Shown here: in pieces, positions 575 through 17,245 of the stretch | Position numbering within the stretch: the stretch's first letter is position 1 | How the letters are laid out: every line of letters begins with the position of its first letter | Assembly: GCA_004298605.1 (NCBI GenBank) | Contig: SCPW01000445.1 | Location: 1-20,133, forward strand | Length of the DNA: 20,133 nucleotides | Direction of reading: 5' to 3' | Origin: Gallionella sp. | GTDB taxonomy: Bacteria > Pseudomonadota > Gammaproteobacteria > Burkholderiales > Gallionellaceae | Position numbers and translations under genes: made by a program | The notes under the pieces: model-generated | What the model saw: only the letters and a program-made list of their open reading frames with translations | The model's database searches: none | Told to the model about the DNA's origin: nothing

Positions 575-3103
575 ATGAATCTCCTCCGCCTCTCCCTCAA
601 CCTGTTGCGCCGCGACTGGCGCGCCGGGGAGTGGCGCGTGCTGCTGCTGGCGCTGGTGCTGGCGGTGGGCAGCCTCGCGACGGTCGGGCTGTTTGCCGAC
701 CGCGTGCGGCAGGCGTTGCAGCAGGAGGCGACCAGCCTGATCGGCGCGGATTTGCGCATCGTTTCGGCGCGCCCGCTGCCACCCGCTTATCGTGCTGCGG
801 CGCGGGCGCGCGGGCTGCGGACGGTGGAAAGCCGCGCGTTTTTGAGCATGGTGGCGCATCGCGGGCAGACGTTGCTTTCCGAGATACAGGCGGTGGAGGC
901 GGGTTATCCGTTGCGCGGCAAAATAGTGATTGATGATGGCGCGGGTTCAACCCCCTCCCTAACCCTCACCCCGCCCGGGGGAGGGGATGCTGTCAGTCGC
1001 GGCACGGTGTGGGTGGACGGGCGCTTGCTGCGCCGCCTCGATTTGCGTGTCGGCGACGAGGTCGGCATCGGCAAGCTGCGCTTCGCGGTGGCGGCGCGCA
1101 TCGTGCGCGACGTCGACCGGGCGGTCGGTTTTTACAGCTTCGCGCCGCGTGTGCTGATGAACGGCGACGACCTCGCCGCGACCGGTCTGCTCCAGGAAGG
1201 CAGCCGCATCGTTTACCGGCTGATGGTCGCGGGCGAGGCGCGGCAGATCGAGGCGTTGCGCGACGGGTTGAAGCCGGGCTTGTCGGATGGCGAGAAGCTG
1301 GAAGACGTGCGCGATGCGCGGCCGGAAATCCGAACCGCGCTGGAGCGCGCCGAACATTTCCTCGGCCTCGCCGCGCTGACTGCGGCGATTCTCGCGGGTG
1401 CGGCGATGGCGCTGGCGGCGCGGCGTTTCGTGCTGCGCCACCTGGATACTTGCGCGATGATGCGCTGCCTCGGCGCGCGGCAGGGGCAGGTGCTGCGCCT
1501 GTTCCTCTACCAGTTCCTGCTGCTCGGCGCGGTCGCGGCGCTGCTCGGTTGCGCGCTGGGCTATGCCACGCAGGCGGCGCTGGCCGGATTCATCGAAACG
1601 GTGCGCGATGCGGAACTGCCTCAACCTTCTGTGTTGCCCGCGATCAAGAGCGCGGCCAGCGGTTTTGCGCTGCTGCTCGGTTTCGCCTTCCTGCCGTTGC
1701 TGCAATTGCGCAGCGTGTCGCCGCTGCGCGTGCTGCGCCGCGAACTGGGCGCGCCGCAGGCGAACGCCGTGCTGGCTTATGGCCTCGCCGTGCTGGCGTT
1801 GGCGGGATTGTTTCTGTGGCATTCCGGCTCGGCCAGACTGGGGTTCACGATGCTGGGCGGGCTGCTCGCGGGGCTGCTGTGTTTCGGCCTGCTGGCCTGG
1901 CTGTTGCTGCGCGGGCTGGCGCGCTATTCGCTCCGCTTTCGCGCACAGGTGCGGCACGCGCTCAACAATCTGGCGCGGCATGGGCGCGATTCCGCGCTGC
2001 AAGTGGTGGCGCTCGGTTTGGGCGGCATGGCGTTGCTGCTGCTGACGCTGGTGCGCGGCGACCTGCTGCAAAGCTGGCAAGGCAAGCTGCCGCCGGATGC
2101 GCCGAACCGCTTTATTTTAAACATCCAGCCGGACCAGCAGCAGGCGGTGCCCGATTTCTTTGCGCGCCAATCTTTGCCGCGACCGCAGTTGCTGCCGATG
2201 GTGCGCGGGCGATTGGTCGCCATCAACGCCGCGCCCGTCAACGGCGACAGCTATGCCGACCCGCGCGCCCGCGATCTGGTGGAGCGCGAATTCAACCTTT
2301 CTTACGCGGAAGAGATGCCGGCATGGAACGAGCTGGTGAGCGGCAGTTGGTGGCATATCAGAGGGCGGAAGACAGAAGACAGAGTGCAGAAAGACCGGGC
2401 GCAGTTGTCGGTCGAAGAAGGCATCGCCGGCAGGCTCGGCATCCGCCTCGGCGACGAGCTCACCTACGATGTGGCGGGCAGCCGCTTCACCGCGCGGGTG
2501 GCCAATCTGCGCAAGGTGCAATGGGATTCGATGAAGGTGAATTTCTTCGTGATCGCCACGCCGGAACTGCTCGGGGATTATCCGGTGAGCTATATCGCCA
2601 GTTTTTACCTGCCGCCGGACAAGATGCGCGCGGGCGACCAACTGGCGCGGGAATTCCCCAACCTGCTGGTGATCGACACCGGCGCGATGATCGGGCAGGT
2701 GCGCGGCATCATGGAGCAGATCGCGCAGGCCGTCGGCGTGATATTTCTGTTCACCTTGCTGAGCGGCTTCGCGGTGCTGTATGCCGCGCTGCTCGCCACG
2801 CGGGACGAGCGTGTCAACGAGGCGGCGATCCTGCGCACTTTAGGCGCAAGCAGCCGTTACTTGCGGCGTTTGCACCTTTCCGAATTTGCCGTGCTGGGAT
2901 TGCTGAGCGGCCTGTCCGCCTCTGCCGGCGCGGTGCTGCTGGGCTGGGTGCTGGCGCGTTTTGTTTTGGAAATCCCGTATCGGGCGAGCGTCATCATCTG
3001 GCCGATAGGTGCGCTGGGCGGAATGCTGGTGGTGATGCTGGCGGGATGGCTGGGTACGCGGCGGCTGGCCGTGCTGCCGCCGCTGGTGATCTTGCGCGAG
3101 TAG
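575..3103 (+). CDS. ybbP: FtsX-family ABC transporter permease, YbbP-like
   Basis: This 842-residue inner-membrane protein has the YbbP architecture: one N-terminal helix (about residues 22-42), a large periplasmic domain, a cluster of helices in the middle, a second periplasmic domain, and a C-terminal FtsX block of three helices containing the conserved ERVNEAAILRTLGAS segment. YbbP works with the ATPase YbbA and is thought to be a MacB-like, non-canonical ABC system acting on envelope substrates; no ATPase gene is next to it here. The start ATG at 575 is chosen because TGAGG lies 8 nt upstream and MNLLRLSLNLLRRDWRAGEW is the expected N-terminus; an in-frame ATG at 512 has no such site. The protein is somewhat longer than E. 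coli YbbP (about 804 residues), partly because two repeat-like segments are read in frame (951-986 and 2368-2384). Confidence 0.85.
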   Translation: MNLLRLSLNLLRRDWRAGEWRVLLLALVLAVGSLATVGLFADRVRQALQQEATSLIGADLRIVSARPLPPAYRAAARARGLRTVESRAFLSMVAHRGQTLLSEIQAVEAGYPLRGKIVIDDGAGSTPSLTLTPPGGGDAVSRGTVWVDGRLLRRLDLRVGDEVGIGKLRFAVAARIVRDVDRAVGFYSFAPRVLMNGDDLAATGLLQEGSRIVYRLMVAGEARQIEALRDGLKPGLSDGEKLEDVRDARPEIRTALERAEHFLGLAALTAAILAGAAMALAARRFVLRHLDTCAMMRCLGARQGQVLRLFLYQFLLLGAVAALLGCALGYATQAALAGFIETVRDAELPQPSVLPAIKSAASGFALLLGFAFLPLLQLRSVSPLRVLRRELGAPQANAVLAYGLAVLALAGLFLWHSGSARLGFTMLGGLLAGLLCFGLLAWLLLRGLARYSLRFRAQVRHALNNLARHGRDSALQVVALGLGGMALLLLTLVRGDLLQSWQGKLPPDAPNRFILNIQPDQQQAVPDFFARQSLPRPQLLPMVRGRLVAINAAPVNGDSYADPRARDLVEREFNLSYAEEMPAWNELVSGSWWHIRGRKTEDRVQKDRAQLSVEEGIAGRLGIRLGDELTYDVAGSRFTARVANLRKVQWDSMKVNFFVIATPELLGDYPVSYIASFYLPPDKMRAGDQLAREFPNLLVIDTGAMIGQVRGIMEQIAQAVGVIFLFTLLSGFAVLYAALLATRDERVNEAAILRTLGASSRYLRRLHLSEFAVLGLLSGLSASAGAVLLGWVLARFVLEIPYRASVIIWPIGALGGMLVVMLAGWLGTRRLAVLPPLVILRE
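951..986 (+). repeat. C/G-rich dispersed-type repeat read in frame inside ybbP
   Basis: The stretch has the form CCCCCTCCCTAACCCTCACC followed by a G-rich arm ending GGGGGAGGGG. CCCCTCC (952-958) pairs with GGAGGGG (980-986). It looks like the C-tract/G-tract hairpin repeats that usually lie between genes in proteobacteria. Here it encodes SLTLTPPGGG in the first periplasmic domain without breaking the frame. Confidence 0.55.
2368..2384 (+). repeat. GAAGACA direct repeat read in frame inside ybbP
   Basis: GAAGACAGAAGACAGAG is a purine-rich 7-bp tandem repeat (GAAGACA twice) continuing into TGCAGAAAGACC. It encodes KTEDRVQKDR, a charged and atypical insertion before the conserved SVEEGIAGRLGIRLGDELT segment. 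Its base composition differs from the flanking GC-rich coding sequence. Confidence 0.5.
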
Positions 3104-3146
3104 AAGCGGGGGAAAGGTAGGGTGGGCAAAGCCCGCGCGGAGGGCT

Positions 3147-3197
3147 AACGGGCATGGCAAATTGTCACCCCCGATAATGAAACTCGCCATGCCCGTT
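3147..3197. repeat. 12-bp perfect inverted repeat between convergent genes
   Basis: AACGGGCATGGC (3147-3158) is perfectly repeated in inverse orientation as GCCATGCCCGTT (3186-3197) with a 27-bp spacer. It lies between the convergent permease and calcium-loop genes. It has no clean T-tract, so a terminator role is only possible. The preceding GGTAGGGTGGGCAAAGCCCG (3117-3136) resembles common proteobacterial intergenic repeats. Confidence 0.5.
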
Positions 3198-3228
3198 TCC
3201 CTCTCCTCAATCCTCTCCCGCAAGCGGG

Positions 3229-3267
3229 CGAGGAGGCAAACGAATCGCTGCGCGAGTTTCACATTAA
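3229..3267 (-). repeat. 39-bp dispersed repeat, copy 1
   Basis: Read on the minus strand, this segment matches 17207-17245 on the plus strand over 39 bp with about four differences, sharing the core GTGAAACTCGCGCAGCGAT. It supplies the TAA stop codon of the calcium-loop gene. It continues on its far side into a C-tract/G-tract hairpin (about 3211-3233, CCTCTCCCGC/GCGGGCGAGG). Confidence 0.75.
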
Positions 3268-4391
3268 ACGACCAGATCAACTTGCTGCAACGTTCCCGCG
3301 CTGCCGTCTTCGTGTAAATAAACACCGCTGCTGCGCACCTGCCCCCGCAAATCATTTGCGGAATTTTTCAGGTCGAACGGGGTTGCGACATTGCCGAGGT
3401 AAAGCGCGCCGACGTTGCGTTTTGCCAGGGCGCTGAGCGTGTCTTTTCCGGCGGTGTCCTTGCTCCATACCTGTAGTCTGGAATAGACGGCATCGTTTTC
3501 ATCTATCCAGTTGTTGCTGTCGCCGTCGTAAGCGGACAAATCGGAAAAACCGTTTCCGCTTTGTGTGCCAAACAGTTCCGAGCCATTGTCTATGACGCCG
3601 TTGGCGTTTCTGTCCAGAGCCAGAAATCCGCTTCCGGCCCCGACGAAGGATATTTCTTCGGCATTGCCGTCGCTGTCGAGGTCGAAGCCGAATTTTGTGT
3701 CGGTAAGCTGGGCTGCCGTACCGTTGAAATTGATGACCAGAGGGTCTTTTTTTACCCCATCGCCTTCGCGTATGGACAGGTTGGTTTCCCGGAAAAATTC
3801 CCGCTTCATCTCTATCGCGAGATCGAACTGTATTTCCTTGCCGTCGGATGTCTTGATGATGCCTCGGGCGGTAAAGGTGGTCAGCTCGGACTCGCGGATC
3901 GTCTCGTGCCTGTCATACTCGATCCCCCAGCCCTGGCGCTGGTTTTGGGCTGGGGTCTGGTTTGCCCGGGCGGCTTCGGCGGCTTGCTGCGCGGTTTTTT
4001 GGGACTGCACTTGAGCATCGCTCAGCTTCATCTCATTCGGGTTGAATAACTTGACTTTTTGCCCGGTGAGTGCCTCGATCAAACTGATGAGCAGCAGCAT
4101 TTTCGGGTCGTTGCTTGCCTGATTTTCCGCATCTTCCGCTTCGGCGGCGGCCTGGGCATTGGCGGTGGCCTGGGCATTGGCAAAAACCTGGGCATCGGCG
4201 GCCGCTTGTTTGCCGGCGGCGGATATCGTCGCCGCGGTCGATCGGATTGCGGCGGCTCTGTTTTCGGTGGCGCGGCCTTCAAAATCGGGGCGCTGCTGGC
4301 CAATCCAAGCGCGCAGGGATTCTTCGACAGTGACTTGTTTCGAGCTTGCATGCTGGCCAGCCAGGCCGATGTCCGAATGTTCGATTTTCAT
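3264..4391 (-). CDS. Calcium-loop protein of unknown function, predicted sigma-28 regulon
   Basis: I do not recognise a named family for this 375-residue protein. It has no signal peptide or membrane helix. The N-terminal third is Ala/Gln-rich and probably helical, with tandem hexads near residues 67-84 (AQVFAN, AQATAN, AQAAAE). Residues 96-120 form a short hydrophobic segment followed by KVKLFNPNE. The C-terminal half has three Asp-rich loops of the EF-hand/dockerin or VCBS kind at about 237-248 (DLDSDGNAEEIS), 260-271 (DRNANGVIDNGS) and 289-300 (DGDSNNWIDEND), which suggests calcium binding. It is monocistronic. A strong match to the flagellar sigma-28 promoter lies at 4422-4448, and GAGAG precedes the ATG. 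A motility- or surface-related role is inferred from that promoter only. Confidence 0.8.
   Translation of the reverse strand: MKIEHSDIGLAGQHASSKQVTVEESLRAWIGQQRPDFEGRATENRAAAIRSTAATISAAGKQAAADAQVFANAQATANAQAAAEAEDAENQASNDPKMLLLISLIEALTGQKVKLFNPNEMKLSDAQVQSQKTAQQAAEAARANQTPAQNQRQGWGIEYDRHETIRESELTTFTARGIIKTSDGKEIQFDLAIEMKREFFRETNLSIREGDGVKKDPLVINFNGTAAQLTDTKFGFDLDSDGNAEEISFVGAGSGFLALDRNANGVIDNGSELFGTQSGNGFSDLSAYDGDSNNWIDENDAVYSRLQVWSKDTAGKDTLSALAKRNVGALYLGNVATPFDLKNSANDLRGQVRSSGVYLHEDGSAGTLQQVDLVV
4151..4204 (-). repeat. 18-bp tandem repeat inside the calcium-loop gene
   Basis: Three 18-bp units begin at 4151, 4169 and 4187, each starting CCTGGGCATTGGC or a one-base variant. They encode the alanine-rich hexads in the N-terminal part of the protein. 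Being a multiple of three, the unit number could change without a frameshift. Confidence 0.7.
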
Positions 4392-4421
4392 GATGTTGTC
4401 TCTCAGTGGCGCCTTGAGTGT

Positions 4422-4448
4422 TTATCGGCATAAACCCGGCCACCTTTA
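4422..4448 (-). promoter_or_regulatory. Sigma-28 (FliA) promoter
   Basis: On the minus strand TAAAGGTG (4448-4441), an 11-bp spacer and GCCGATAA (4429-4422) match the E. coli FliA consensus TAAAGTTT-N11-GCCGATAA: 6 of 8 in the -35, 8 of 8 in the -10, and exact spacing. Transcription would start about 25 nt before the ATG at 4391, leaving room for the GAGAG ribosome site. Confidence 0.8.
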
Positions 4449-4537
4449 GCGCCAGAATGCGGCGGGTCTGCCGCTGATAACAATAATCTGGCGGTATTGC
4501 GTTGGCCCGGACGTTTCGGGCAGCGCGCTTTTTGGGG

Positions 4538-4567
4538 TTGAGCAACAACCCCGTTCAAGGGTAGAAT
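4538..4567 (+). promoter_or_regulatory. Sigma-70-type promoter of rpsO
   Basis: TTGAGC (4538-4543) and TAGAAT (4562-4567) are separated by 18 bp and lie just upstream of the rpsO ribosome-binding site. Both hexamers are close to consensus. Confidence 0.6.
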
Positions 4568-4596
4568 GCCGAACTTTTTTTAGGAGTGTAAAACCA

Positions 4597-4866
4597 ATGG
4601 CAATTACCGCCGCGCAAAAAGCGCAAATCGTTACCGACTTTCAACGCGCCAAGAGCGACACGGGCTCCCCCGAAGTGCAAGTGGCCTTGATCACTGCACG
4701 CATCGCTTACCTGACCGAGCATTTCAAGGATAATGTCAAGGATCACCATTCGCGCCGCGGCCTGCTGCGCCTGGTGAGCCGCCGCCGCAAGCTGCTCGAT
4801 TACCTCAAGAGCAAGAACGATGCGGCTTATCGCGCGCTGATCCAACGCCTGGAAATTCGCAAGTAA
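4597..4866 (+). CDS. rpsO: 30S ribosomal protein S15 (uS15)
   Basis: This 89-residue protein has the standard S15 length and hallmarks: the N-terminal [23 protein letters not shown] helix-loop, then [28 protein letters not shown] and the closing [13 protein letters not shown]15 binds 16S rRNA early in assembly of the 30S platform. AGGAG (4582-4586) lies 10 nt before the ATG. The order rpsO-pnp is conserved across proteobacteria and is kept here, with a stable hairpin in the 101-bp gap. In E. coli S15 represses its own translation through the mRNA leader; I did not find a clear equivalent pseudoknot here. Confidence 0.97.
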
Positions 4867-4880
4867 TAATCTGTCATTCA

Positions 4881-4915
4881 GCGGGTCGCTTATGCGGCCC
4901 GCGTTGTTTTGTCTT
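4881..4915 (+). terminator. Intercistronic rpsO-pnp hairpin
   Basis: GCGGGTCGC (4881-4889) pairs with GCGGCCCGC (4894-4902) around a TTAT loop, with one G-U pair, followed by a T-rich tract (GTTGTTTTGTCTT). In E. coli this interval holds the rpsO attenuator and the RNase III site through which PNPase autoregulates. The position and form agree with such a role, which is inferred. Confidence 0.65.
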
Positions 4916-4967
4916 GTCACAATGCATGGCGTGATTGCGCGCCATGCCATTCACAGAGAGGTCTATC

Positions 4968-7085
4968 TTGAGTCACTATAAAAAAACAATAGCGTACGGC
5001 AACCATCAACTCACGCTGGAAACCGGCGAGATCGCGCGCCAAGCCAGCGGCGCGGTGATGGTCAGCCTGGATGACACGGTGGTGCTGGTTACCGTGGTCG
5101 GCAGGAAAGATGCCAAGCCCGAACAGGATTTTTTCCCGCTTACTGTGGATTATCAAGAAAGAACTTACGCTGCGGGCAAGATTCCAGGCGGTTTTTTCAA
5201 GCGTGAAGGCCGCCCCAGCGAAAAGGAAGTTTTGACCAGCCGGCTGATCGATCGCCCGTTGCGCCCGTTGTTCCCGGAAAGTTTTTACAACGAAGTGCAG
5301 ATCGTCGCGACAGTCATGTCTTCGGATAACGAGATCGACTCCGATATTCCCGCCATGATCGGCGCGTCCGCCGCGCTGGCGCTGTCCGGCATCCCGTTCG
5401 ACGGCCCGATCGGCGCGGCGCGCGTGGGTTACGCCAACGGCCAATATTTGCTCAACCCGACCGCTACCGAACTTTTGACTTCGCAAATGGATTTGGTCGT
5501 CGCCGGCACGGAACGCGCCGTGCAGATGGTGGAATCGGAAGCGCAGCAATTGTCCGAAGAAGTGATGCTGGGCGCGGTGATGTTCGGACACGAGCAAATG
5601 CAAGCCGTGATTGGAGCGATCAATGAGATGGCCGATGCGGTCGGTGCTCCCGCCTGGGATTGGACCGCGCCAGCCAAAGATGAAGCGCTGATCGCACGGA
5701 TTGCCGAACTGGCCGATGCACCGCTGCAACAGGCTTACGCGATCCGCTCCAAACAAGCGCGCACCGATGCGGTGGCCGCGATTCACGACAAAGTGATGGC
5801 CGCAGTGATTACGCCAGAATCGCCTGCCGGCCAAAAAAATCACGTCAACGATTTATTCAGCGCACTGGAAGCCAAAATTGTTCGCGGCCAAATCTTGAGC
5901 GGCGAGCCGCGCATCGACGGCCGCGATACGCGCACCGTGCGCCCGATCACGATCCGCAATGGTGTATTGCCACGCACCCACGGTTCCTCTTTGTTTACAC
6001 GCGGCGAAACGCAAGCCATCGTTGTGGCGACGTTGGGTAGTATGCGCGATTCCCAGAAGATAGACGCACTGCAAGGCGAATACACCGACCGCTTTATGCT
6101 GCACTACAACTTCCCGCCATATTCCACCGGTGAAACCGGTCGCGTGGGTACGCCCAAGCGCCGCGAAATCGGCCATGGCCGATTGGCCAAGCGCGCGCTG
6201 GTCGCGGTGTTGCCCAGCGAAGAAGATTTCGGCTATGCCATCCGCGTGGTATCGGAAATCACCGAATCGAATGGCTCTAGCTCGATGGCTTCGGTATGCG
6301 GCGGTTGTTTGTCGCTGATGGACGCCGGTGTGCCGCTGAAGGCGCATGTGGCGGGTATCGCCATGGGGCTGATTAAAGAAGGTAACCGCTTTGCCGTGCT
6401 GACCGATATTCTGGGCGATGAAGATCACCTGGGCGATATGGACTTCAAGGTGGCCGGTAGCGAAACGGGCGTCACCGCACTGCAAATGGACATCAAGATC
6501 AACGGCATCACACGCGACATCATGCAAGCCGCGCTGATCCAGGCCCGCGAAGGCCGTATGCACATCCTCGGCCTGATGAAACAAGCCATGCCGCAGGCGC
6601 GCACCGAAGTATCCGATTTTGCGCCGCGCATGATCAAGATGAAAATCAACCCCGAAAAAATCCGCGACGTGATCGGCAAGGGTGGCGCCGTGATCCGTGC
6701 CCTGACCGAAGAAACCGGCACAACCATCGACATCGACGACAGCGGCAATATCACCATCGCTTGCGTGAGCGGCGAAGCTGGTGAATTGGCCAGGAAACGC
6801 ATCGAAGATATCGTGGCAGACGTGGAGGTCGGCAAGATTTACGAAGGCCCCGTGGTCAAGTTGCTCGACTTTGGCGCGCTGGTAAATGTGTTGCCGGGCA
6901 AAGATGGCCTGTTGCACATTTCACAGATTGCCCACGAACGTGTCAACAGCGTATCGGATCACCTCAAGGAAGGCCAGATTGTGCGCGTGAAAGTGCTGGA
7001 AGTGGACGATAAAGGACGCATGAAGCTGAGCATGAAAGTATTGCTGCCATCACCTGAAGGCAGGCCTGCGCACGCCGCCGAGTAA
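4968..7085 (+). CDS. pnp: Polyribonucleotide nucleotidyltransferase (PNPase)
   Basis: PNPase degrades RNA 3'-to-5' by phosphorolysis, as a trimer and in the degradosome. This 705-residue protein (E. coli: 711) has two RNase PH domains, then a KH domain with the GKGG loop at 570-573 and a C-terminal S1 domain (about 615-690, [19 protein letters not shown]). The active-site triad lies at D486, D492 and K494 ([10 protein letters not shown]). Conserved [14 protein letters not shown] and RPLRPLF are present. I chose a TTG start at 4968 because AGAGAGG (4955-4961) is 6 nt upstream and [20 protein letters not shown] is the expected N-terminus. An in-frame ATG at 4944 has no good ribosome site. Confidence 0.97.
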
Positions 7086-7100
7086 TCCGCGATACAGAAC

Positions 7101-7134
7101 AAAAAAGCCCCGCCGGTTCCGGCGGGGCTTTTTT
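7101..7134 (+). terminator. Rho-independent terminator of pnp
   Basis: A long GC-rich stem (AAGCCCCGCC / GGCGGGGCTT around GGTTCC) flanked by A6 and T6 lies 15 bp after the pnp stop. The flanking A- and T-runs would make it work in both directions, fitting the convergent arrangement with dksA. Confidence 0.92.
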
Positions 7135-7180
7135 GTTGCGGCTACTATCCGAAGGCTCCGACATAACCTAAAGGTTGGTC

Positions 7181-7224
7181 TTCGCCGAAAACAAATAGCC
7201 AAGATTACCTGGCTATTTGCTTTT
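7181..7224 (-). terminator. Second, distal copy of the dksA terminator
   Basis: This 44-bp block copies 7261-7304 with six differences, offset by exactly 80 bp. It forms a hairpin whose arms are 7188-7203 and 7208-7223. In minus-strand RNA every pair is kept (two pairs as U-G), and the hairpin is followed by a U-tract. It would act as a back-up terminator for dksA read-through. Confidence 0.7.
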
Positions 7225-7234
7225 GGTTACGGCA

Positions 7235-7257
7235 TAACATGCGCTACGCACATGTTA
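7235..7257. repeat. 7-bp inverted repeat between the two dksA terminators
   Basis: TAACATG (7235-7241) and CATGTTA (7251-7257) flank a 9-nt loop in the spacer between the two terminator copies. Its function is not apparent; it resembles short intergenic palindromes. Confidence 0.4.
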
Positions 7258-7260
7258 GCC

Positions 7261-7304
7261 TTCGCCGAAAACAGATAGCCAAAATTATTTGGCTATCTGT
7301 TTTT
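7261..7304 (-). terminator. Proximal dksA terminator, overlapping the stop codon
   Basis: A perfect 16-bp stem (7268-7283 with 7288-7303) with a 4-nt loop. Its 5' arm in the minus-strand RNA encodes the last dksA codons and the TAA stop sits at the loop. A run of U follows on the minus strand, and the A/T symmetry suggests activity on both strands. Confidence 0.85.
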
Positions 7305-7707
7305 CACGGATTTCGTCCAGGGTCTTGCAGTCGATACACAGGGTGGCTGTCGGTCTCGCTTCAAGGCGGTTTAACCCGATTTCGATGCCGCATTTATCGC
7401 AGTACCCATATTCGCCAGCGTCAATCCTGGCGAGCATTTCGTCAATTCTCTTAATCAATTTGCGTTCACGGTCGCGGTTGCGCAGCTCAAGGCTTACGTC
7501 GGATTCTTGCGTGGCGCGATCATTCGGGTCGGCGAATATGGTCGCTTCATCCTGCATGGTATGCACGGTGCGGTCTATATCCTGGCCCAGGCCGGCCTTG
7601 ATGTCGTTTAAAATCTGGCGGAAATGATCCAGTTGCTTGGGGTTCATGTACTCCTCGCCTTTTTTGGCTTTGTAGGGGGCGACGGGTTTGTGTGGCTGAA
7701 CGGGCAT
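7285..7707 (-). CDS. dksA: RNA polymerase-binding transcription factor DksA
   Basis: DksA inserts its coiled coil into the RNA polymerase secondary channel and works with ppGpp in the stringent response. This 140-residue protein (E. coli: 151) has the GEEYMN segment (17-22), the coiled-coil tip with D60, D63 and A65 (ADPNDRA, equivalent to the essential D71/D74/A76 region), the [13 protein letters not shown] helix and a zinc site C103-C106-C124-C127 (YCDKCG, CIDCKT). The closing REKQIAK matches the REKQMAG of E. coli. The ATG at 7707 is preceded by GGAGAAG at a good distance; a GAGGAG before the inner ATG (residue 21) is another possible start. All functional residues are present, so this is a canonical zinc DksA. 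Confidence 0.95.
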
Positions 7708-7742
7708 TACACTTCTCCAACGGGATAAAAATAAAGTTCGCT

Positions 7743-7771
7743 TTAATACCAGAAAGCGCCCCTTCATGCAA
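7743..7771 (-). promoter_or_regulatory. Sigma-70-type promoter of dksA
   Basis: On the minus strand TTGCAT (7771-7766), a 17-bp spacer and TATTAA (7748-7743) lie 36 bp before the dksA start codon, with the GGAGAAG ribosome site between. The spacing is ideal and the hexamers match in 4 of 6 positions each. Confidence 0.6.
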
Positions 7772-7808
7772 ATAAATAAGGCCGGGCAAATATAAATTTT
7801 TGGGTGCG

Positions 7809-8528
7809 CTAACCCGCGAGCAGCAGAAACAGGCTCGGGCGCTTGTTCAGTTGCGGGATAGGCTGCGATTTCCACTGTGCGATGGAGCGCGTCCGGATCT
7901 GTTCGCCGGGCAGGGTAATATCGGTGGCGACGCATAGCAGGGTTTGCGGGCGGCAGTGGGCGAGCAGGGCGCCGAACATTTTTTCATTGCGGTACGGGGT
8001 TTCGATGAACAGTTGGGTTTGTTTGCGCTGCGCCGATTCTGCTTCCAGCGTTGTGATCGCCCTGTTTCTTTCCGCCTCCGCGATGGGCAGGTAGCCGTGA
8101 AAGGCGAAGTGCTGGCCGTTCAGTCCGGAGGCCATCAGCGCCAATAAAATAGAGGAAGGCCCGACCAGCGGCGCGACGCGGATGCCGTTGCGGTGCGCCA
8201 GGTTGACCAATTCGGCGCCCGGGTCGGCGATGCCCGGACAGCCCGCTTCGGAGATGATGCCGGCATCTTCTCCCGCCAGCAGCGGCGCGAGCAATCCCGC
8301 CAATTCCCCGGCGGCAGTGTGCTCGTTGAGCGTGGCGAAGTGTAAAGATTGAATCGGCTGTTCCGGTTTGAGAGCGGAGAGAAATTGCCGCGCGGTCTTG
8401 GGTTGCTCCACTATGAAATATTTCAATCCGCGCGCGATGTCGATGGCGTGTTGCGGTAGCACCTGCTCTGCACGGGTATCGCCCAGTGTGCAGGGAATCA
8501 GATACAGAATACCCGGAGAGCTTGTCAT
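7809..8528 (-). CDS. Short RsmI-like SAM-dependent methyltransferase (tetrapyrrole methylase fold)
   Basis: The 239-residue protein belongs to the COG0313 group related to RsmI, the 2'-O-methyltransferase of 16S rRNA C1402. Visible family motifs are [12 protein letters not shown] at 93-104 (RsmI: DAGTPLISDPG), VGPSS at 122-126, FHGYLP at 143-148 and FIETPYRN at 174-181. It is about 45 residues shorter than typical RsmI, ending soon after the second subdomain, so the C-terminal RsmI domain is missing. Its ATG overlaps the yceF stop (ATGA, 8525-8528), so the two are translationally coupled. The substrate is not known from sequence; it may be a paralogue of RsmI rather than RsmI itself. The short gap to dksA (101 bp) holds the dksA promoter. 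Confidence 0.8.
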
Positions 8529-9115
8529 GGCTGGAACAGGCGCACGTTTTCGCGGCGCAGCATTTCGGTCAGCAGGATGAGCGGCAGGCCGATCAGCGCG
8601 TTCGGGTCGTCGCCGGCCATTCTGGCGATCAGCGCGATACCCAGCCCTTCCGATTTTGCGCTGCCGGCGCAGTGATAGGGCTGTTCCTTGCGCAAATAGC
8701 CTTCGATTTCCGCATCGCTGAGATCGCGCAGGGTGACAAGATTTTCCGCTACCCCGGTTTGCAGGTTGCCGGTCTTGCTGTTCAGCAGTGCCAGCGCGGT
8801 ATAAAAACAGGTAGTTTTGCCGCGCATGGCGCGCAGTTGCTTAACTGCATTGTCGTGGGTGAGCGGTTTGCCGAGTTGCCGGCCTTCCAGCAGGGCGACC
8901 TGGTCGGAGCCGATAACCAACGCGTTGGGGTAAGCAGCGGCCACGGCACGGGCTTTTTCCTGCGCAAGGCGTATTGAGGTGGCGTGCGCCGGTTCGTCCG
9001 GCAGAGGTGTTTCATCCACATCGGGTGCGGCGGTCTCAAAAGGGAGTTGCAGCCGTTTGAGCAGTTCGCTGCGGTAAATGGAGCTGGAGGCGAGGACAAG
9101 CAACTGAGAACTCAA
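8525..9115 (-). CDS. yceF: Maf-family nucleotide pyrophosphatase YceF (7-methyl-GTP type)
   Basis: Maf proteins hydrolyse non-canonical nucleoside triphosphates; the YceF subgroup prefers 7-methyl-GTP. The 196-residue protein has LASSSIYR (8-15), PDVDET (31-36), LAQEKA (50-55), SDQV with catalytic D71, LGKPLT (81-86) and [12 protein letters not shown] (149-160), closely following E. coli YceF and not the YhdE dTTPase group. The start is a TTG at 9115 preceded by AAGGA 6 nt upstream; no ATG gives this N-terminus. It overlaps the downstream methyltransferase by 4 bp and is divergent from yceD. The yceF-yceD-rpmF neighbourhood is conserved in E. coli too. Confidence 0.93.
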
Positions 9116-9133
9116 GAATTTTCCTTAGGATTT

Positions 9134-9162
9134 TTGACAGGGGGCAACGAAAAATATATCAT
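9134..9162 (+). promoter_or_regulatory. Strong sigma-70 promoter of yceD-rpmF(-plsX-fab)
   Basis: TTGACA (9134-9139, perfect consensus), a 17-bp spacer and TATCAT (9157-9162, five of six) lie immediately before yceD. The predicted start site is about 9169-9170, only 2-3 nt before the yceD ATG at 9172, so the transcript would be almost leaderless. Confidence 0.8.
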
Positions 9163-9171
9163 GCGCGCCTC

Positions 9172-9666
9172 ATGAACGCACGGCCTTTGATCGACTGTCT
9201 GGATTTTGCCAGGAATGGCCGGCAAACCAGCGGGAAGGTGCCGGTTGCCGGATTGGCTCGTTTGCTGGATGTGCTGGAAAATCCGCAGGGATTTTTTGGC
9301 TATACGGTGCAGGGTGGCGTGGATAAACAAGGCAACCCATATCTGGATGTCAGTGTCGCCGGAATCTGCCGGTTGCGTTGCCAGCGGTGCCTGGGTGGCT
9401 TGGATTATCCGGTACACCTGGATTCGCGCTTGTTGCTGCGCGACCAGGCAGGTCTGGATGCTCTGGATACGGATGAAGAAGAGTTCGACAGTATTCTGGC
9501 AGATGCGAAACTGGATGTGCTGGATATGCTGGAAGAAGAGATTTTGTTGAGCCTGCCAATCGCGCCCAGGCATGAATTGGGCGCTTGTCAGGCGGAAGAC
9601 GGCAAAAATGTGCATAAGGAAGAAAAGAATCCTTTTGCGGCTTTAGCGAAATTGAAACGTAATTAA
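9172..9666 (+). CDS. yceD: YceD/DUF177 family protein, 23S rRNA accumulation protein
   Basis: The 164-residue protein belongs to the YceD/DUF177 family, linked to 23S rRNA accumulation and nearly always encoded before rpmF. It has the family's cysteine patch CRLRCQRC (C66, C70, C73), the acidic region [10 protein letters not shown], the [14 protein letters not shown] block and the closing [12 protein letters not shown]. The N-terminus [12 protein letters not shown] is typical of betaproteobacterial members, supporting the ATG at 9172. There is no Shine-Dalgarno; the promoter -10 ends 9 nt before the ATG. rpmF follows after 23 bp in the same transcript. Confidence 0.93.
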
Positions 9667-9689
9667 GTTGTTTTTTGAGGAGTATTAGC

Positions 9690-9869
9690 ATGGCAGTTCA
9701 GCAGAATAAAAAGTCACCATCCAAGCGCGGCATGCATCGCGCCCATGATTTCCTGACCAATCCGGCGACAGCGGTCGAGCCAACCACGGGCGAAATCCAC
9801 CTGCGCCACCACATCAGCCCAAGCGGCTTTTACCGTGGTAAAAAAGTAATCAAGACCAAGGGCGAATAA
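9690..9869 (+). CDS. rpmF: 50S ribosomal protein L32 (bL32)
   Basis: This 59-residue protein begins [20 protein letters not shown] and contains the L32 core [23 protein letters not shown]32 is a small protein of the 50S subunit. GAGGAG (9677-9682) lies 7 nt before the ATG, a strong ribosome site in contrast to the upstream yceD. It has no zinc-binding cysteine pairs, so it is the zinc-independent form. It is followed by a hairpin with a T-rich tail and then by plsX, the common arrangement linking ribosome and lipid genes. Confidence 0.97.
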
Positions 9870-9881
9870 GCTCTCGAACTG

Positions 9882-9917
9882 CGCAGCCGGCCGTCGAGGT
9901 CGGCTGCGTTTTCTTTT
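9882..9917 (+). terminator. Rho-independent terminator/attenuator between rpmF and plsX
   Basis: CGCAGCCG (9882-9889) pairs with CGGCTGCG (9901-9908) around an 11-nt loop, followed by TTTTCTTTT (9909-9917). It could reduce transcription of the plsX-fab genes relative to rpmF. Confidence 0.75.
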
Positions 9918-9954
9918 CTATCCCTGCCTTCTTTATCTATCCAAGGATCGCTTA

Positions 9955-10992
9955 GTGGATGTGACGTTAGCCATAGATGCGATGGGAGGCGACCACGGCA
10001 CCACGGTCACCATTCCTGCCGCAGTCGAGTATCTGAAGCAGTTCCCCGACGATACCATCGTTCTGGTGGGTATCCCCGATGCCATTGAAACCGAACTGCG
10101 CGCTTTGGGCGTGCAGGTTGGCGGGCACTTGCGCATCTATCCCGCCAGCGAAGTGGTGGGTATGGACGAGCAGCCGCAATCCGCGTTGCGCGGTAAAAAA
10201 GATTCCTCGATGCGCGTCAGCATTGACCTGGTCAAGAACGGCGAAGCGTTGGCCTGTGTCAGCGCCGGCAATACCGGCGCGCTGATGGCGACGGCGCGCT
10301 ACGTGCTGAAAACCATCCCCGGCATCGACCGTCCCGCGATCGCGTCTTACCTGCCGACTAAAAAAGGCCAGATATGTATGCTCGACCTCGGGGCCAACAC
10401 CGATTGCACCGCCGAGCATCTGCTGCAATTCGCCCTGATGGGTTCCACGCTGGTAACGGCGCTGGAGCATAAACCCAATCCCAGCATCGGCCTGTTGAAT
10501 ATCGGCAGCGAAGATATCAAGGGCAATGAAGTGGTCAAGCAGGCCGTGCAATTGCTGCGGGGCAGCGACCTGAATTTTTATGGCAACATCGAAGGTAACG
10601 ATATTTTTAAAGGTACAACCGATGTGGTGGTGTGCGACGGCTTCGTCGGCAATGTCGCGCTCAAAACCACCGAGGGAATGGCGCAGATGATGGGCGGTTT
10701 CCTGCGCGAAGAATATAGCCGGAGCATATTCGCCAAGCTCGCCGCACTGGTGTCGATGCCGGTGCTCAAGGCCTTCAAGCACCGGCTGGACCACCGCCGC
10801 TACAACGGCGCGAGTTTTCTGGGTTTGAAAGGTATCGTGGTGAAGAGCCACGGTTCGGCCGATATTTACGCCTTTCGCTGCGCGATAGAACGCGCCGCCG
10901 AAGAAGCGCGCGAGGACATGTTGCAGCACATCAGCGAACATATCGAGAAATGGCATCACGAGCGCCAAAACACAATGCAAGGAGCGGTCTGA
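9955..10992 (+). CDS. plsX: Phosphate acyltransferase PlsX
   Basis: PlsX converts acyl-ACP and phosphate to acyl-phosphate, the donor for PlsY in phosphatidic acid synthesis, and works at the inner face of the membrane. The 345-residue protein begins [15 protein letters not shown], with the conserved DAMGGDHG at 8-15, and carries [53 protein letters not shown] and the C-terminal [10 protein letters not shown]. The start is GTG at 9955 with AAGGA 7 nt upstream. Its TGA overlaps the fabH ATG by one base, so the two are coupled. Confidence 0.96.
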
Positions 10993-13012: not shown

Positions 13013-13143
13013 AGCCACAGAGAACACAGAGATCACAGAGTAAAAACAAACGGTTGACCCCGGAAATTGATTCACCTTTTCGGTGTGCCATAAAAACGTG
13101 TAACACCGCTGATTTCTCTGTGTTCTCTGTGTTCTCTGTGGCT
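13013..13143. repeat. CACAGAG-type inverted repeats between fabD and fabG
   Basis: AGCCACAGAGAACACAGAGA (13013-13032) is perfectly repeated in inverse orientation at 13124-13143. The right side carries an extra TCTGTGTTC unit. Between the arms are about 90 bp of AT-richer sequence without a reading frame. It belongs to the well-known type of short CACAGAG intergenic repeats of proteobacteria. Confidence 0.85.
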
Positions 13144-13178: not shown

Positions 13179-13922
13179 ATGACATTACAAGGACAAATCG
13201 CACTCGTCACCGGCGCCAGCCGCGGTATCGGCCAGGCCATCGCGCTGGAACTGGGCAGGCAGGGGGCAACGGTAATCGGCACCGCCACCAGCGACGCGGG
13301 CGCGCAAGCGATCGGCGCCTATCTGGATGCGGCGGAAATCAAGGGTGCGGGTATGGTGTTGAACGTCAACGATGCGGCGCAAACCGAACACATGCTGGGC
13401 GAACTGCGCAAGCGATTCGGCGAGGTTTCGATACTGGTGAACAACGCCGGCATCACCCGCGACAACCTGCTGGCGCGCATGACCGAAGAAGAATGGGACG
13501 ACGTGCTGTCCACCAATCTCAAATCGGTGTTCCGCCTCAGCCGCGCCGTGTTGCGCGCGATGATGAAAGCCAGGGGCGGGCGCATCATCAGCATCTCATC
13601 GGTGGTCGGCAGCATGGGCAACCCCGGCCAGGCCAACTACGCCGCTTCCAAGGCGGGCATGATGGGTTTCACCAAATCTCTCGCGCAGGAAATCGGCAGC
13701 CGCAATATCACCGTGAACTGCGTTGCGCCCGGATTTATTGACACCGATATGACCCAAGGCTTGGGCGAAGAACAACGCGCGAAACTGGTCGAGCATGTGC
13801 CGCTGAAACGCCTCGGCCAGCCCGCCGACATCGCCGCCGCCGTGGCTTTCCTGGCAGGTCCTGGCGCGGCTTACATCACCGGTGTCACGCTGCATGTGAA
13901 CGGCGGGATGTATATGGAGTAG
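13179..13922 (+). CDS. fabG: 3-oxoacyl-ACP reductase
   Basis: FabG reduces 3-oxoacyl-ACP with NADPH in the elongation cycle. The 247-residue short-chain dehydrogenase has the cofactor motif TGASRGIG (11-18), NNAG (88-91), N113 and the catalytic S141, Y154 and K158 (QANYAASKAG), and ends VNGGMYME. AAGGAG (13168-13173) lies 5 nt before the ATG, so it has its own strong ribosome site despite the 189-bp repeat-filled gap from fabD. The usual next genes acpP and fabF are absent; the next gene is convergent and unrelated, with only 54 bp between and no clear terminator. Confidence 0.96.
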   Translation: MTLQGQIALVTGASRGIGQAIALELGRQGATVIGTATSDAGAQAIGAYLDAAEIKGAGMVLNVNDAAQTEHMLGELRKRFGEVSILVNNAGITRDNLLARMTEEEWDDVLSTNLKSVFRLSRAVLRAMMKARGGRIISISSVVGSMGNPGQANYAASKAGMMGFTKSLAQEIGSRNITVNCVAPGFIDTDMTQGLGEEQRAKLVEHVPLKRLGQPADIAAAVAFLAGPGAAYITGVTLHVNGGMYME

Positions 13923-13976
13923 GGGGATCGCAAGGAAACCCCTGAAATCCACATTCACCCCGACCGGCGAAGCGCC

Positions 13977-15740
13977 CTACCTTTTGAACAGCGAAGTGCC
14001 CTGCAGAGATCCGATCAATGCGCCGGAATTGAAAGCGTTCGCGCTATACGAAGTCAATGCGCCGGCCGCATTGGGGGCGATGAATACCCCGCCGGCTTCC
14101 CCCTTGATAACTGACACCGGGCCTGCGCCGGCCAGGTTTGCACCGGACAGCGCCAGCCCGCAGGATCCGCTGGTGCAATTGCTCTGGTAGAACTGCTGCA
14201 CGGTGCCTGTGTAATTCAGCCCCCAAGTTCTTGTCCCGTTGCTGGCATTGATCGTCAGTGAGACGGCGGGCGAGGTGGTGGCGGCCGTTACGGTCAGGCT
14301 GCCGGTGGCCGAGTAGGTTGAGCCGAGGTTATCCACGACGTTTCCCGCTCCCGGCACAATGTTGAACGTGTGCGAATTGCTTTGGAAATAGGCATTGGCC
14401 TGGATGAAGTTCATCGAGTGTTCGGTGAACATCAGGCTCATCGTGATCGGGTCGCGCGTACCTGTCGGGTCGACGAACTGATCCGGGCCGACATAGCGGC
14501 CCCACATCACCTTGGCCGTCCCTACGGTTGCCTGCCCGCCCTCTACCATCTTCGCCGTGCCGGCGCTGTATTGCATGCTGCCAAACTGGCTCTGTTCGGC
14601 GACCAGCACCGGCAGTTTGGTGGTGGCGTCGAACAGGATGGTCTGGTTGGGGCCTTCCACCACGATGCCGCCCCCACCGGCAAACGGGCCGGTGACATTC
14701 GCGCTGCCGCTCCATCCGGTGCGGATACTGATGTCGCCGCCGACGCCACCGGTGCCTACCGGCGCGAGGATGGTGCCGCTGCCCGAGGTAACGGAGCCGG
14801 AGCCGGTGGTGCCCGTGACAAGGGTAGTGTTGGGCGGTGGCGGGGGCGGCAACAGCGTGCTGCCCAACATGTTTTGCGGCGGGGGCGGCGGCATGGTGCT
14901 ACCGGTTGGCGGAGGTGGCGGTGGCTGGTAGACACCGTTGGCGGGAGGCTGTCCTGCCAACGCCGTTTTCTCGCCTGGCGCCGGCTGGACGCCGCCATTT
15001 GCAGGCTTCTGCCCGGCGTCCTGTTTTTTCACATCCTTGGCCTGCTGTTTGCCGTCCGCCTTGCCGGCATCCTGCCGCTTCCGGTCGTCACGCCCCTGCT
15101 GGCCGCCCTTGGGCGCCTCGAAAATCGTCGGAACGTGTGGCAGGATCGCCGCCGGTGTGCCCAGATTAGGCGCGTAGGCCACCTGGTTCATCCCGACCAG
15201 CGTGCCGTTGACCACGGTTGTACCGGTATTCACCTTGTTGTAAGTGCCTTCGGGCAGGTTGGCCAGGGCGGCGATCAGGTGGATCGTTTCATGGTCCGTG
15301 CCGCGAATGCCGATGGTGGCCGACGGTGTCCGGATGCCGTAGTTCCCCTTGTTGCTCCTGCCGATGAGGCCGGTGATCGAACGGAATCCGCCCTTCAGCA
15401 GCGAAAAAAAGCCCCGTTCGGCCCCATCTTCCTTGTTGGCTAGCTTGTATTCGTCAATCCGCAATGTGGTTTCCGGCCTCACCGCGACAATGCCGTCGTC
15501 AATCATGCGCAACTGGGCGGAGCCGGTTTTTCCGGAAAGGATGGATTCCTTTTCGTTGACCTCGCCGCCCTTGATGGCCGGGCGTTCCCTGCCGTCCGCG
15601 CCGACGATGCGGACGTCCCCGGCCACGAACTGGAATCGCCCGGCCACTGCCGCCCATGCGGGATGGGGCAGGCACATTGATACCAGGGCGAACATGCACA
15701 GGCTGAAAGCGATGGCTTGCCGGAAATGGTGTTTTGTCAT
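13977..15740 (-). CDS. Exported FecR-domain protein with C-terminal TbpB-like barrel; candidate Slam/T11SS cargo
   Basis: The 587-residue protein has a type I signal peptide (cleavage after AWA, residue 30), a FecR domain (about 31-190, with LSGKTGSAQLRMIDDGIVAVRP and the characteristic TPSATIGIRGTDHE at 138-151), a charged Lys/Gln linker (211-260), a proline-rich segment (270-304, three runs of five or six prolines) and a Gly/Ser/Thr-rich C-terminal domain of about 250 residues. That last domain alternates polar and hydrophobic residues and has near its end GVFIAPNA (551-558), resembling the G-x-F-x-x-P-x-A element of TbpB-type barrels. A Cys pair (SNCTSGSC) may form a disulfide. There is no lipobox and no membrane helix, and no FecI-type sigma factor nearby. 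AGGA overlaps the upstream gene's stop, so the two are coupled. Cargo status is inferred. Confidence 0.8.
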   Translation of the reverse strand: MTKHHFRQAIAFSLCMFALVSMCLPHPAWAAVAGRFQFVAGDVRIVGADGRERPAIKGGEVNEKESILSGKTGSAQLRMIDDGIVAVRPETTLRIDEYKLANKEDGAERGFFSLLKGGFRSITGLIGRSNKGNYGIRTPSATIGIRGTDHETIHLIAALANLPEGTYNKVNTGTTVVNGTLVGMNQVAYAPNLGTPAAILPHVPTIFEAPKGGQQGRDDRKRQDAGKADGKQQAKDVKKQDAGQKPANGGVQPAPGEKTALAGQPPANGVYQPPPPPPTGSTMPPPPPQNMLGSTLLPPPPPPNTTLVTGTTGSGSVTSGSGTILAPVGTGGVGGDISIRTGWSGSANVTGPFAGGGGIVVEGPNQTILFDATTKLPVLVAEQSQFGSMQYSAGTAKMVEGGQATVGTAKVMWGRYVGPDQFVDPTGTRDPITMSLMFTEHSMNFIQANAYFQSNSHTFNIVPGAGNVVDNLGSTYSATGSLTVTAATTSPAVSLTINASNGTRTWGLNYTGTVQQFYQSNCTSGSCGLALSGANLAGAGPVSVIKGEAGGVFIAPNAAGALTSYSANAFNSGALIGSLQGTSLFKR

Positions 15741-15748
15741 GGCGGTTC

Positions 15749-17098
15749 CTATTTGAATTCGCGGCGCACGGTGATCGAGGCGTCGATGCGGTTGTAATCG
15801 TTCAGGCCCGAATTCGAATCGTTGCGGGTGTAGGAGAGTTGGGGTCTCACCACCCAGTTCTGGAGGGGTCTCCAGTTCAGTCCCAGCGACAGGTCGTGCT
15901 GGTGGTCGCGGCGGTAATCCAGGATCAGCGGGTTGCTTGACCGGTAGTCGCCCCGCTTGAAACCGGCGGAGCCGGTGGCTTCAAGATTTTCGCCCAGCGA
16001 TTTTTGCCCGCCCAGCTTAATCCCCCAGAATTTCTGGTCGCCGTCGATGCGCACCGTGGCTGCGACGGTATTCTCGTTGCCGCCGTAGATGCTGGCAAAC
16101 ACGATGTTTTTGCCATAATCGTCAAAAGCGTGCAGCCAGCCCAAACCGGCAACCGACTGGTCGACGTCGTTGTAGGACAGATCCGTGCCGGTCTTGTCGT
16201 GGCCGTAGCGCAACAGGCCGTACTGGCCGAATACGCTGACAATGTTGCGCGGGTTGAAGGTGTGGCGCCATTCGCCGGATATTGCGGCCAGGCGGTGGTT
16301 GAGCCTGTCGTCGATGTCGTACACGCCTTTCTGGGCGGCCAGGCGGAAGGCGTTGGCGCCTTCGTCGATATTCAGGCCAAACCGGCCATCCAGGTTGTCG
16401 GTGTTGAAGGTATCCTTGAAAAAGTTCTGCCGTTTCTTGGCATCGGCGCCGGCAAACAGGGAAAGGCCGGGCTTGAGCGGTTTTACGATTTCCAGGCCGC
16501 CGCCGAGCGCGAGGTAGTTGTCTCTTGCGGCGACACTGGCGCTGTCCAAGGTCAGGCTGGCGCCGAATACCGGGATGAAGACCTGGCTGGCGGCGGTGGC
16601 GGTGTTGACGTTAGTGTCATAGCCCGCGACACCTTCGAGGTAACCGGTGACGGTGATGCCGGGGTTCAACTTCTTGTCGATGGCCGCCAGGTACTGTTCG
16701 ATCACGCTTTTTGCCGCAGGCGGCGGGTTCTGTGCCTGCACTGCCTCGAATTCGGTTTTTGCGCGCTCCATATCGCCCAGGGCGAAGTAGGCGCGCGCCA
16801 GATCGAGCCGCGCACCAGCATAATCGGGGTTTACCGCCAGCACCCGTTCCAGCGCCAGCGTAGCCTTGTCCGGGCTGCCGCTGTCGAGCGCGGCGATGCC
16901 GAGCAGGTAATCGTAGTCAACGTTGCCGGCCATCTCGTCTTCGTGCGGGGCGAGCAGGGCATAGCCTTCCTTGGCCTTGCCCGCTTTCAGCAATACATCC
17001 GCCTTGCCCGGGTCGAATTCTGCCGCAACAGCGATGCCAGAGCATAACAGCCCCATCGAGGCGATCAGGTGTGCTTGATACCGATACGTTTTCTTCAT
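15749..17098 (-). CDS. Slam-like outer-membrane protein (TPR plus DUF560-type beta-barrel)
   Basis: The 449-residue protein has a signal peptide (cleavage near AVAA, residue 26), two clear TPR motifs at about 62-126 (YDYLLGIAALDSGSPDKATLALERVL; ARLDLARAYFALGDMERAKTEFEAV), a linker SVIEQYLAAIDKK, and a barrel from about 147 to the end with alternating aromatic/polar strands and the terminal ASITVRREFK. This is the plan of Slam proteins, the outer-membrane components of type XI secretion that move TbpB-like lipoproteins or soluble cargo to the surface; Slam proteins are usually 460-490 residues. It is the first gene of a unit whose second gene encodes a plausible cargo. A weak GGGAA site precedes the ATG at 17098. 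An unrelated TPR-containing porin is the main alternative. Confidence 0.72.
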   Translation of the reverse strand: MKKTYRYQAHLIASMGLLCSGIAVAAEFDPGKADVLLKAGKAKEGYALLAPHEDEMAGNVDYDYLLGIAALDSGSPDKATLALERVLAVNPDYAGARLDLARAYFALGDMERAKTEFEAVQAQNPPPAAKSVIEQYLAAIDKKLNPGITVTGYLEGVAGYDTNVNTATAASQVFIPVFGASLTLDSASVAARDNYLALGGGLEIVKPLKPGLSLFAGADAKKRQNFFKDTFNTDNLDGRFGLNIDEGANAFRLAAQKGVYDIDDRLNHRLAAISGEWRHTFNPRNIVSVFGQYGLLRYGHDKTGTDLSYNDVDQSVAGLGWLHAFDDYGKNIVFASIYGGNENTVAATVRIDGDQKFWGIKLGGQKSLGENLEATGSAGFKRGDYRSSNPLILDYRRDHQHDLSLGLNWRPLQNWVVRPQLSYTRNDSNSGLNDYNRIDASITVRREFK

Positions 17099-17206
17099 GT
17101 TTTTCCCGAAATTGAAAGGTGTTTAATGAGGCTCAGGGCAAAAGCAGGGCAAAAGGCATATCCGTCAGCCCTTACTTTAGCCTTAAGTTTCATTTAGTTC
17201 CAGTCT

Positions 17207-17245
17207 TTAACGTGAAACTCGCGCAGCGATACGTTTGCCCCCTCG
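17207..17245 (+). repeat. 39-bp dispersed repeat, copy 2
   Basis: It matches the reverse complement of 3229-3267 (TTAA-N-GTGAAACTCGCGCAGCGAT and on to CCTCG) with about four differences. It lies in the 172-bp gap between the ABC-F stop and the Slam-like start, and lacks the C-tract/G-tract hairpin attached to copy 1. Confidence 0.75.

Follow-up and report, generated by a model that had tools for sequence, protein, structure and literature searches.

What is a FecR-domain protein doing beside an outer-membrane protein of the Slam type? The question is raised by a 20,133-nucleotide stretch of Gallionella sp. DNA (contig SCPW01000445.1 of assembly GCA_004298605.1; the window), in which two neighbouring minus-strand genes encode a protein with a tetratricopeptide repeat (TPR) domain and a beta-barrel, and an exported-type protein with a FecR domain. 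The original prediction, made from the window's sequence, had proposed that the two form a unit of the type XI secretion system (T11SS). The Slam-like/FecR gene pair itself was confirmed. Our comparisons of sequences point to a form of the Slam route that recurs with a partner of the FecR type and is undescribed in the literature searched, the homologies and the pairing being its solid part. We put at roughly 65% the probability that the pair belongs to the type XI (Slam) route as a variant with two genes and no lipoprotein, in which the FecR protein would be exported by its SlipAM neighbour.

The gene pair and its recurrence

The barrel gene lies upstream of the FecR gene, from which it is separated by 8 bases (15741-15748), and a ribosome-binding-type AGGA overlaps its stop codon (Table 1), as had been predicted. 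The barrel protein carries an N-terminal TPR domain (TPR_19, 49.7 bits), and its best barrel match is SlipAM (PF04575), which at 28.7 bits passes the curated cut-off of 22 bits. Its family behaves in the same way: 52 of the 53 members chosen for alignment A2 match PF04575 at E ≤ 0.001, compared with 21 for OMP_b-brl and 16 for BBP2_2, in support of the predicted Slam-like identity. For this alignment, as for A1, the sequences were chosen from 120 listed matches of each search. The Slam-specific TPR model PF24575 (TPR_Slam) is matched by three of the 53 members at the same threshold. The closest relative of the barrel protein among the best 80 of 272, a set from which very near genomes may be left out, belongs to Sulfuricella sp. 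T08 (63%). The FecR partner shows, by eye, the charged and proline-rich linkers and the Gly/Ser/Thr-rich C-terminal part described earlier; GVFIAPNA, taken before as the end of the protein, proved to be internal (residues 551-558), with 29 residues after it.

Homologue searches returned 584 relatives of the FecR protein and 817 of the barrel protein at E ≤ 0.001, among 8000 scored candidates each, and in the window's own genome (2.30 Mb in 462 contigs, 85.8% complete) these two genes are the sole matches of PF04575 and PF04773 at this threshold. In a first survey of GTDB species genomes the barrel family was the only query; of 272 relatives the best 80 were kept, giving 79 loci, and the FecR profile was applied afterwards. 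Counting open reading frames (ORFs) that score above 200 on the barrel profile, a FecR domain lies within 800 bases downstream on the same strand in 77 of the 86 SlipAM-like ORFs, mostly near 100 bases. Among the remaining nine, four are at a contig edge and five are without a downstream FecR, one of these (L028) having a FecR just upstream. The order-wide survey, which may share species with the first, drew on 200 genomes from the window's order and kept the top 78 barrel matches, down to about 5e-39, with one ORF per locus; it omits weaker matches, so that one of 2e-31 inside locus L200 is not counted apart, nor are others, some in ORFs of 455-498 amino acids (aa). FecR was found downstream in 68 of these loci and upstream in three, the C domain described below was the only neighbour in one, and six had none. 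In a class survey, 21 of 209 genomes had a match, and with the window itself excluded there were 26 SlipAM matches: 15 with FecR downstream, three with TbpB_B_D upstream, one with a C domain upstream, three with none and four without a SlipAM-like ORF. In this set L140 and L144 carry two pieces of one gene, and the contig with L132 also has a TbpB_B_D match.

The exporter gene comes first in the window and in most of the surveyed loci, and the FecR-linked loci are mostly in records titled as betaproteobacteria. Since the 200 order genomes hold 491 FecR matches, roughly two to three per genome, adjacency of FecR and SlipAM at the observed rate is not a matter of chance. The many homologues, together with an adjacency kept in most loci examined, likewise indicate that the pair is more than a coincidence, and the expectation that FecR and DUF560 neighbours would recur in other genomes is borne out.

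The C-terminal domain and its relation to TbpB_B_D

The shortest FecR partners, which are FecR only, split or cut, measure 164-325 aa, and the longest are ORFs of nearly 2,000 aa that extend beyond the locus; a terminal motif is common to many of the longer partners. An iterative search for the C-terminal (C) domain found 124 matched stretches in 56 ORFs. The 78 FecR ORFs of the first survey hold none (23 ORFs), one (21), two (11), three (16), four (6) or five (1) of these matches, in counts that include cut ORFs and may include partial matches. In one locus (L063, 7247-12479) the FecR part and the barrel-repeat part fall into separate ORFs that overlap, which gives the impression of a single long gene broken in two.

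We compared the C family with a set of 51 TbpB_B_D domains from 36 loci, two rows of which came from FecR-linked genes. With hhalign, the raw alignments gave 76%; restricting the comparison to match columns gave 90.2% (score 40.4), with collinearity along almost all of the domain (TbpB_B_D 2-120), and the value stayed at 89.0% (score 39.4) when the two FecR-linked rows were removed. The controls for the former comparison gave 12.3 and 13.6 with reversed profiles, 9.7 with FecR, 12.0 with SlipAM and 13.9 in the best of 60 column shuffles; a second set of 60 column shuffles, for the latter, reached up to 11.8. The window's own C subfamily joins the C family at 99.7% over 176 columns of a profile comparison. 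These profile comparisons place the C-terminal domain in a family that is a distant relative of the TbpB barrel known from Slam cargo. Ten FecR proteins from other contexts carried neither a C nor a TbpB domain, and the stretches of 4-7 kb around them showed no SlipAM barrel. In six of seven loci fetched for TbpB_B_D matches, an ORF next to the match is picked up by the barrel profile for the window's family; these loci come from four genomes of the class survey, and three of the seven matches are below the cut-off.

The two kinds of partner meet in locus L114/L247 of a related genome (G235). Here a 575-aa protein, close in size and layout to the window's FecR protein, combines FecR (residues 72-172, 51.7 bits, cut-off 24) with TbpB_B_D (439-561, 30.3 bits, cut-off 26), and the next ORF on the same strand matches both SlipAM (59.8 bits, cut-off 22) and TPR_Slam (40.3 bits, cut-off 35.2). 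The combination implied by the proposed Slam route, FecR and an above-cut-off TbpB_B_D in one protein beside a Slam gene, therefore exists, and it raised our confidence in export of the FecR protein while lowering it in the polysaccharide alternative discussed below. Locus L200 contains two divergent units of the FecR/SlipAM type. One has FecR and a C domain; the other has a 1164-aa protein with FecR (41.4 bits) and a TbpB_B_D match, accompanied on the same strand by another FecR gene, which is short, and by a SlipAM gene with a strong match (86 bits). One domain-profile hit in L200 is not independent because the profile was built with the domains of L114 and L118, whereas the hmmscan result and a later comparison are independent.

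The FecR domain, the export model and its rivals

On the export reading, both proteins would be made with Sec signal peptides, which we read by eye. The first would insert as a barrel, of 14 strands if the family is a guide, with its TPR domain in the periplasm, and the FecR protein would reach the periplasm by Sec as a soluble protein composed of the FecR domain, the charged and proline-rich linker and the C-terminal TbpB-like domain. The SlipAM neighbour would then move it across the outer membrane. The C-terminal barrel-like domain, with up to five matches in relatives, may be the part delivered to the surface, and the FecR domain the conserved part that engages the exporter, probably at the periplasmic face. 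Among known Slam cargo, TbpB is kept unfolded by Skp and crosses by way of Slam (PMC9090332); soluble cargo is established, and non-lipidated cargo is known for TXISS-1B (PMC8406197). Lipidation was considered and set aside: a permissive lipobox pattern turns up in 12 of 77 partners, and in most of these it falls, by eye, within the hydrophobic segment that precedes an AxA-like site.

Several observations weigh against this reading or narrow it. Within the first survey, 17 of the 78 FecR ORFs are short FecR-only proteins (226-325 aa) that have no C domain, are not cut by a locus end and stand directly behind the SlipAM gene; they hold no barrel to deliver, so the barrel is not the sole link between cargo and exporter. 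In the 38 loci where all three parts are full-length, FecR has the highest mean identity (0.53), ahead of the exporter (0.47) and the last C domain (0.36), and exporter distances correlate at 0.854 with those of FecR and at 0.716 with those of the C domain, shared ancestry being uncorrected in both values. Because FecR is constant, better conserved and tracks the exporter more closely, it probably takes part in the exporter interaction, and the barrel would not be the only recognition element. On these sequence data the constant partner of the exporter is FecR, not the barrel. The predicted cargo delivered by its barrel thus stands in the pairing and in the TbpB-related domain and gives way where the barrel was taken as the only link. 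Apart from this, an opposite-strand ORF of 467-483 aa begins no more than 221 bases behind nine of the 17 FecR-only genes (L022, L024, L032, L034, L046, L047, L051, L057 and L058).

Searches of the C-terminal domain with single profiles against Pfam and PDB gave scattered weak matches and no TbpB-type barrel, which made profile-profile comparison necessary. Compared directly with TbpB_B_D, the window's C subfamily reached only 6.4% (score 22.1), or 4.1% (score 20.6, shuffles up to 15.8) without the FecR-linked rows. Since this direct comparison is weak and the match to the C family stands at 99.7%, the link from the window to TbpB runs through intermediates, and the predicted relation to TbpB is clearer for the family than for the window's own domain. 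In addition, TPR_Slam is below its cut-off in the window (16.8 against 35.2 bits), seven of the 78 loci of the order-wide survey showed no same-strand FecR next to the exporter, and L247 has the cargo gene first, the reverse of the window. The TbpB_B_D match in L200 reaches 21.5 bits in hmmscan, below the cut-off, and 25.4 elsewhere, where it is over the cut-off only together with its neighbours; the divergent minus-strand exporter of that locus matches Autotransporter (27.8) above SlipAM (20.7, below the cut-off).

The kind of FecR domain bears on two of the alternatives. In the window protein the Pfam FecR match (24.6 bits, cut-off 24) would fit a signalling protein of the FecI/FecR type that lies beside a porin by happenstance. 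Yet the anti-sigma FecR equivalog PRK09774 is matched at E ≤ 1 neither by the window protein nor by any of 18 cut-out FecR domains, its own and those of 17 relatives, while ten of ten sigma-type FecR controls match it, and judged by these profiles the FecR of the window pair is not of the anti-sigma kind. Moreover, a signal peptide (by eye) takes the place of the cytoplasmic domain, and the pairing with SlipAM recurs far above chance; as predicted, inspection of the window by eye showed no sigma factor. The signalling explanation is already contradicted and we regard it as extremely improbable.

All 18 cut-out FecR domains match the NCBIfam model retention_LapA (NF033682) at E ≤ 1, the best at 3e-10 and that of the window at 1.4e-4 (22.1 bits, below the 50-bit cut-off), and none of ten full-length anti-sigma FecR proteins does so. 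The profile of the FecR domains also matches PDB entry 5ix9 (E 2.4e-5 over 64 residues), listed as Antifreeze protein and presumably part of the Marinomonas ice-binding adhesin. Such likeness would suit a retention role, in which FecR, like the N-terminal module of LapA, remains folded on the periplasmic side, lodged at or inside the SlipAM channel, and keeps the exported barrel attached to the cell by way of the proline-rich linker, which threads the pore. The FecR protein is the only retention_LapA match of the window's genome, where a LapG-type protease gene lies directly beside a LapD_MoxY_N/GGDEF gene, of the LapD receptor type (L235, contig C382 of G000, 1-2034). On the other side, at least seven of ten FecR proteins from other contexts match retention_LapA about as well, so the likeness is general to FecR domains of the non-anti-sigma kind and belongs to the wider FecR family, and a link specific to this pair is weakened. 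A LapG cleavage site ([T/A/P]AAG) was looked for and is not conserved, being present in 10 of 76 partners and 4 of 52 close homologues; the window has PAAI. The Leptospira surface-protein models Lsa33 and LipL45 match 18 of 18 FecR domains, which says little, as Lsa33 also matches seven of ten anti-sigma controls. A FecR-domain protein is listed among the supernatant proteins of L. pneumophila (PMC12239567), which indicates that FecR domains can be extracellular. Retention is therefore doubtful in our view, and so is its fuller form, a LapA-like retention module joined to a Slam-type exporter: Sec would deliver a FecR plug with one to five TbpB-like barrels, SlipAM would pass the barrels out, and the docked FecR would hold them. 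If this were true, FecR-only partners could serve as plugs or as subunits that carry no passenger. That FecR is so constant inclines the balance toward docking at the exporter, and the other-context matches and the L. pneumophila protein incline it toward caution.

Alternatively, the barrel protein might export something else, for example a polysaccharide, as PgaA and BcsC do, with the FecR protein acting as an accessory in the periplasm and binding either peptidoglycan or the TPR domain. BcsC is a TPR-linked barrel of polysaccharide export. FecR-only partners, the LysM-type matches of some FecR proteins from other contexts and the BBP2_2 and OMP_b-brl matches within the barrel family would agree with such a role, and TPR-linked barrels of the PgaA kind are set out in PMC8406197. 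Against it, SlipAM is the best barrel match in the window and is far more widespread in the family than the other two models, no polysaccharide gene was seen in the window by eye, and many partners end in a TbpB-like domain, which in L247 exceeds its cut-off. We consider this explanation quite unlikely, less so than signalling and more so than retention, and export of the FecR protein by SlipAM remains the preferred reading.

Genomic setting, known systems and meaning

Table 1. Positions of the features of the gene pair in the window, followed by two loci from other genomes
Feature	Position	Strand	Basis
SlipAM (Slam/DUF560, T11SS)-like outer-membrane protein gene, 449 aa: signal peptide, TPR domain, beta-barrel	15749..17098	-	ORF and profile scan
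Signal peptide of barrel protein, residues 1-26, cleavage after AVAA	17021..17098	-	by eye
TPR region of barrel protein, residues ~64-142	16673..16909	-	TPR_19, 49.7 bits
SlipAM barrel, residues 161-448	15755..16618	-	28.7 bits, cut-off 22
AGGA, ribosome-binding-type site overlapping TAG stop of barrel gene	15747..15750	-	by eye
FecR-domain partner (putative cargo) protein gene, 587 aa	13977..15740	-	ORF, profile scan and homologue search
Signal peptide of putative cargo, residues 1-30, AWA site, no lipobox	15651..15740	-	by eye
Conserved FecR region, residues 28-210 (Pfam FecR 67-150; weak retention_LapA match 39-98)	15111..15659	-	profile scans
Charged, then proline-rich linker, residues ~211-325	14766..15110	-	by eye
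C-terminal domain, residues 335-587; core ~400-582 aligns with C family related to TbpB_B_D	13980..14738	-	profile comparison
L247: FecR + TbpB_B_D protein, then SlipAM + TPR_Slam gene	G235:C1:742500-753000, 3587-6727		all four models above Pfam cut-offs
L200: two divergent FecR/SlipAM-type units	G436:C1:59900-72000, 1320-10385		

The FecR/SlipAM unit lies behind an ABC-F-type gene and converges on a run that we take to be plsX-fabH-fabD-fabG. This presumed run ends after fabG, where the convergent unit starts (13179-17098), and acpP and fabF do not follow directly after fabG by eye. A 31-nucleotide inverted repeat with CACAGAG-type units (13013-13043 and 13113-13143) is located between the presumed fabD and fabG. 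A largely intergenic 40-nucleotide sequence occurs twice in opposite orientation at 93% (3229-3268 and 17206-17245), the latter copy just upstream of the SlipAM-like gene, and a terminator-like sequence of 51 nucleotides occurs in two copies (84%; 7174-7224 and 7254-7304), 80 bases apart, behind a long ORF ending at 7085. The phage collection searched gave no match, and a phage origin is unsupported.

The pair resembles the T11SS/Slam system (PF04575 with TbpB_B_D cargo) in having a TPR and SlipAM barrel gene beside an exported-type protein with a C-terminal TbpB-related domain, but differs in that the putative cargo starts with FecR and holds zero to five barrel-type matches, FecR is the constant part and the exporter gene mostly comes first. 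A 2025 survey of T11SS divides the systems into ten network clusters, with verified cargo in the animal-associated one only, and leaves open whether other domains target cargo in its cluster 3 (PMC12282271). That marine cluster is likewise a SlipAM branch that usually neighbours something other than a plain TbpB_B_D protein; its partner, in Rhodobacteraceae/Roseobacteraceae, is DUF1194 (PMC12282271), whereas here it is FecR. LapA-type adhesins have an N-terminal domain distantly similar in sequence, with a variable passenger behind it, but LapA exits by a type 1 system (PMC6890996), while the proteins described here have a Sec signal peptide (by eye), a SlipAM neighbour and no conserved LapG site; retention modules have been described for type 1 and type Vb adhesins (PMC13090378, PMC6890996). 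With FecI-FecR surface signalling the pair shares the Pfam FecR domain, but a signal peptide (by eye) replaces the anti-sigma N-terminus and the FecR equivalog is not matched. FecR does not occur in the main texts of PMC12282271 and PMC8406197, whose supplementary tables may list such neighbours, and literature searches that joined T11SS, Slam, DUF560 or SlipAM with FecR, and wider ones, found no paper on the pairing among results judged mostly by their listing.

The pairing recurs with partner proteins of very different sizes in many environmental bacteria, suggesting that a known secretion route has a class of cargo not yet described. Proteins that are named only FecR-domain or hypothetical, and are easily taken for iron regulators, would thereby gain a likely cell-surface setting. 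A branch in which FecR is constant and the barrel matches vary from none to five may also offer a natural series for asking what these exporters recognise.

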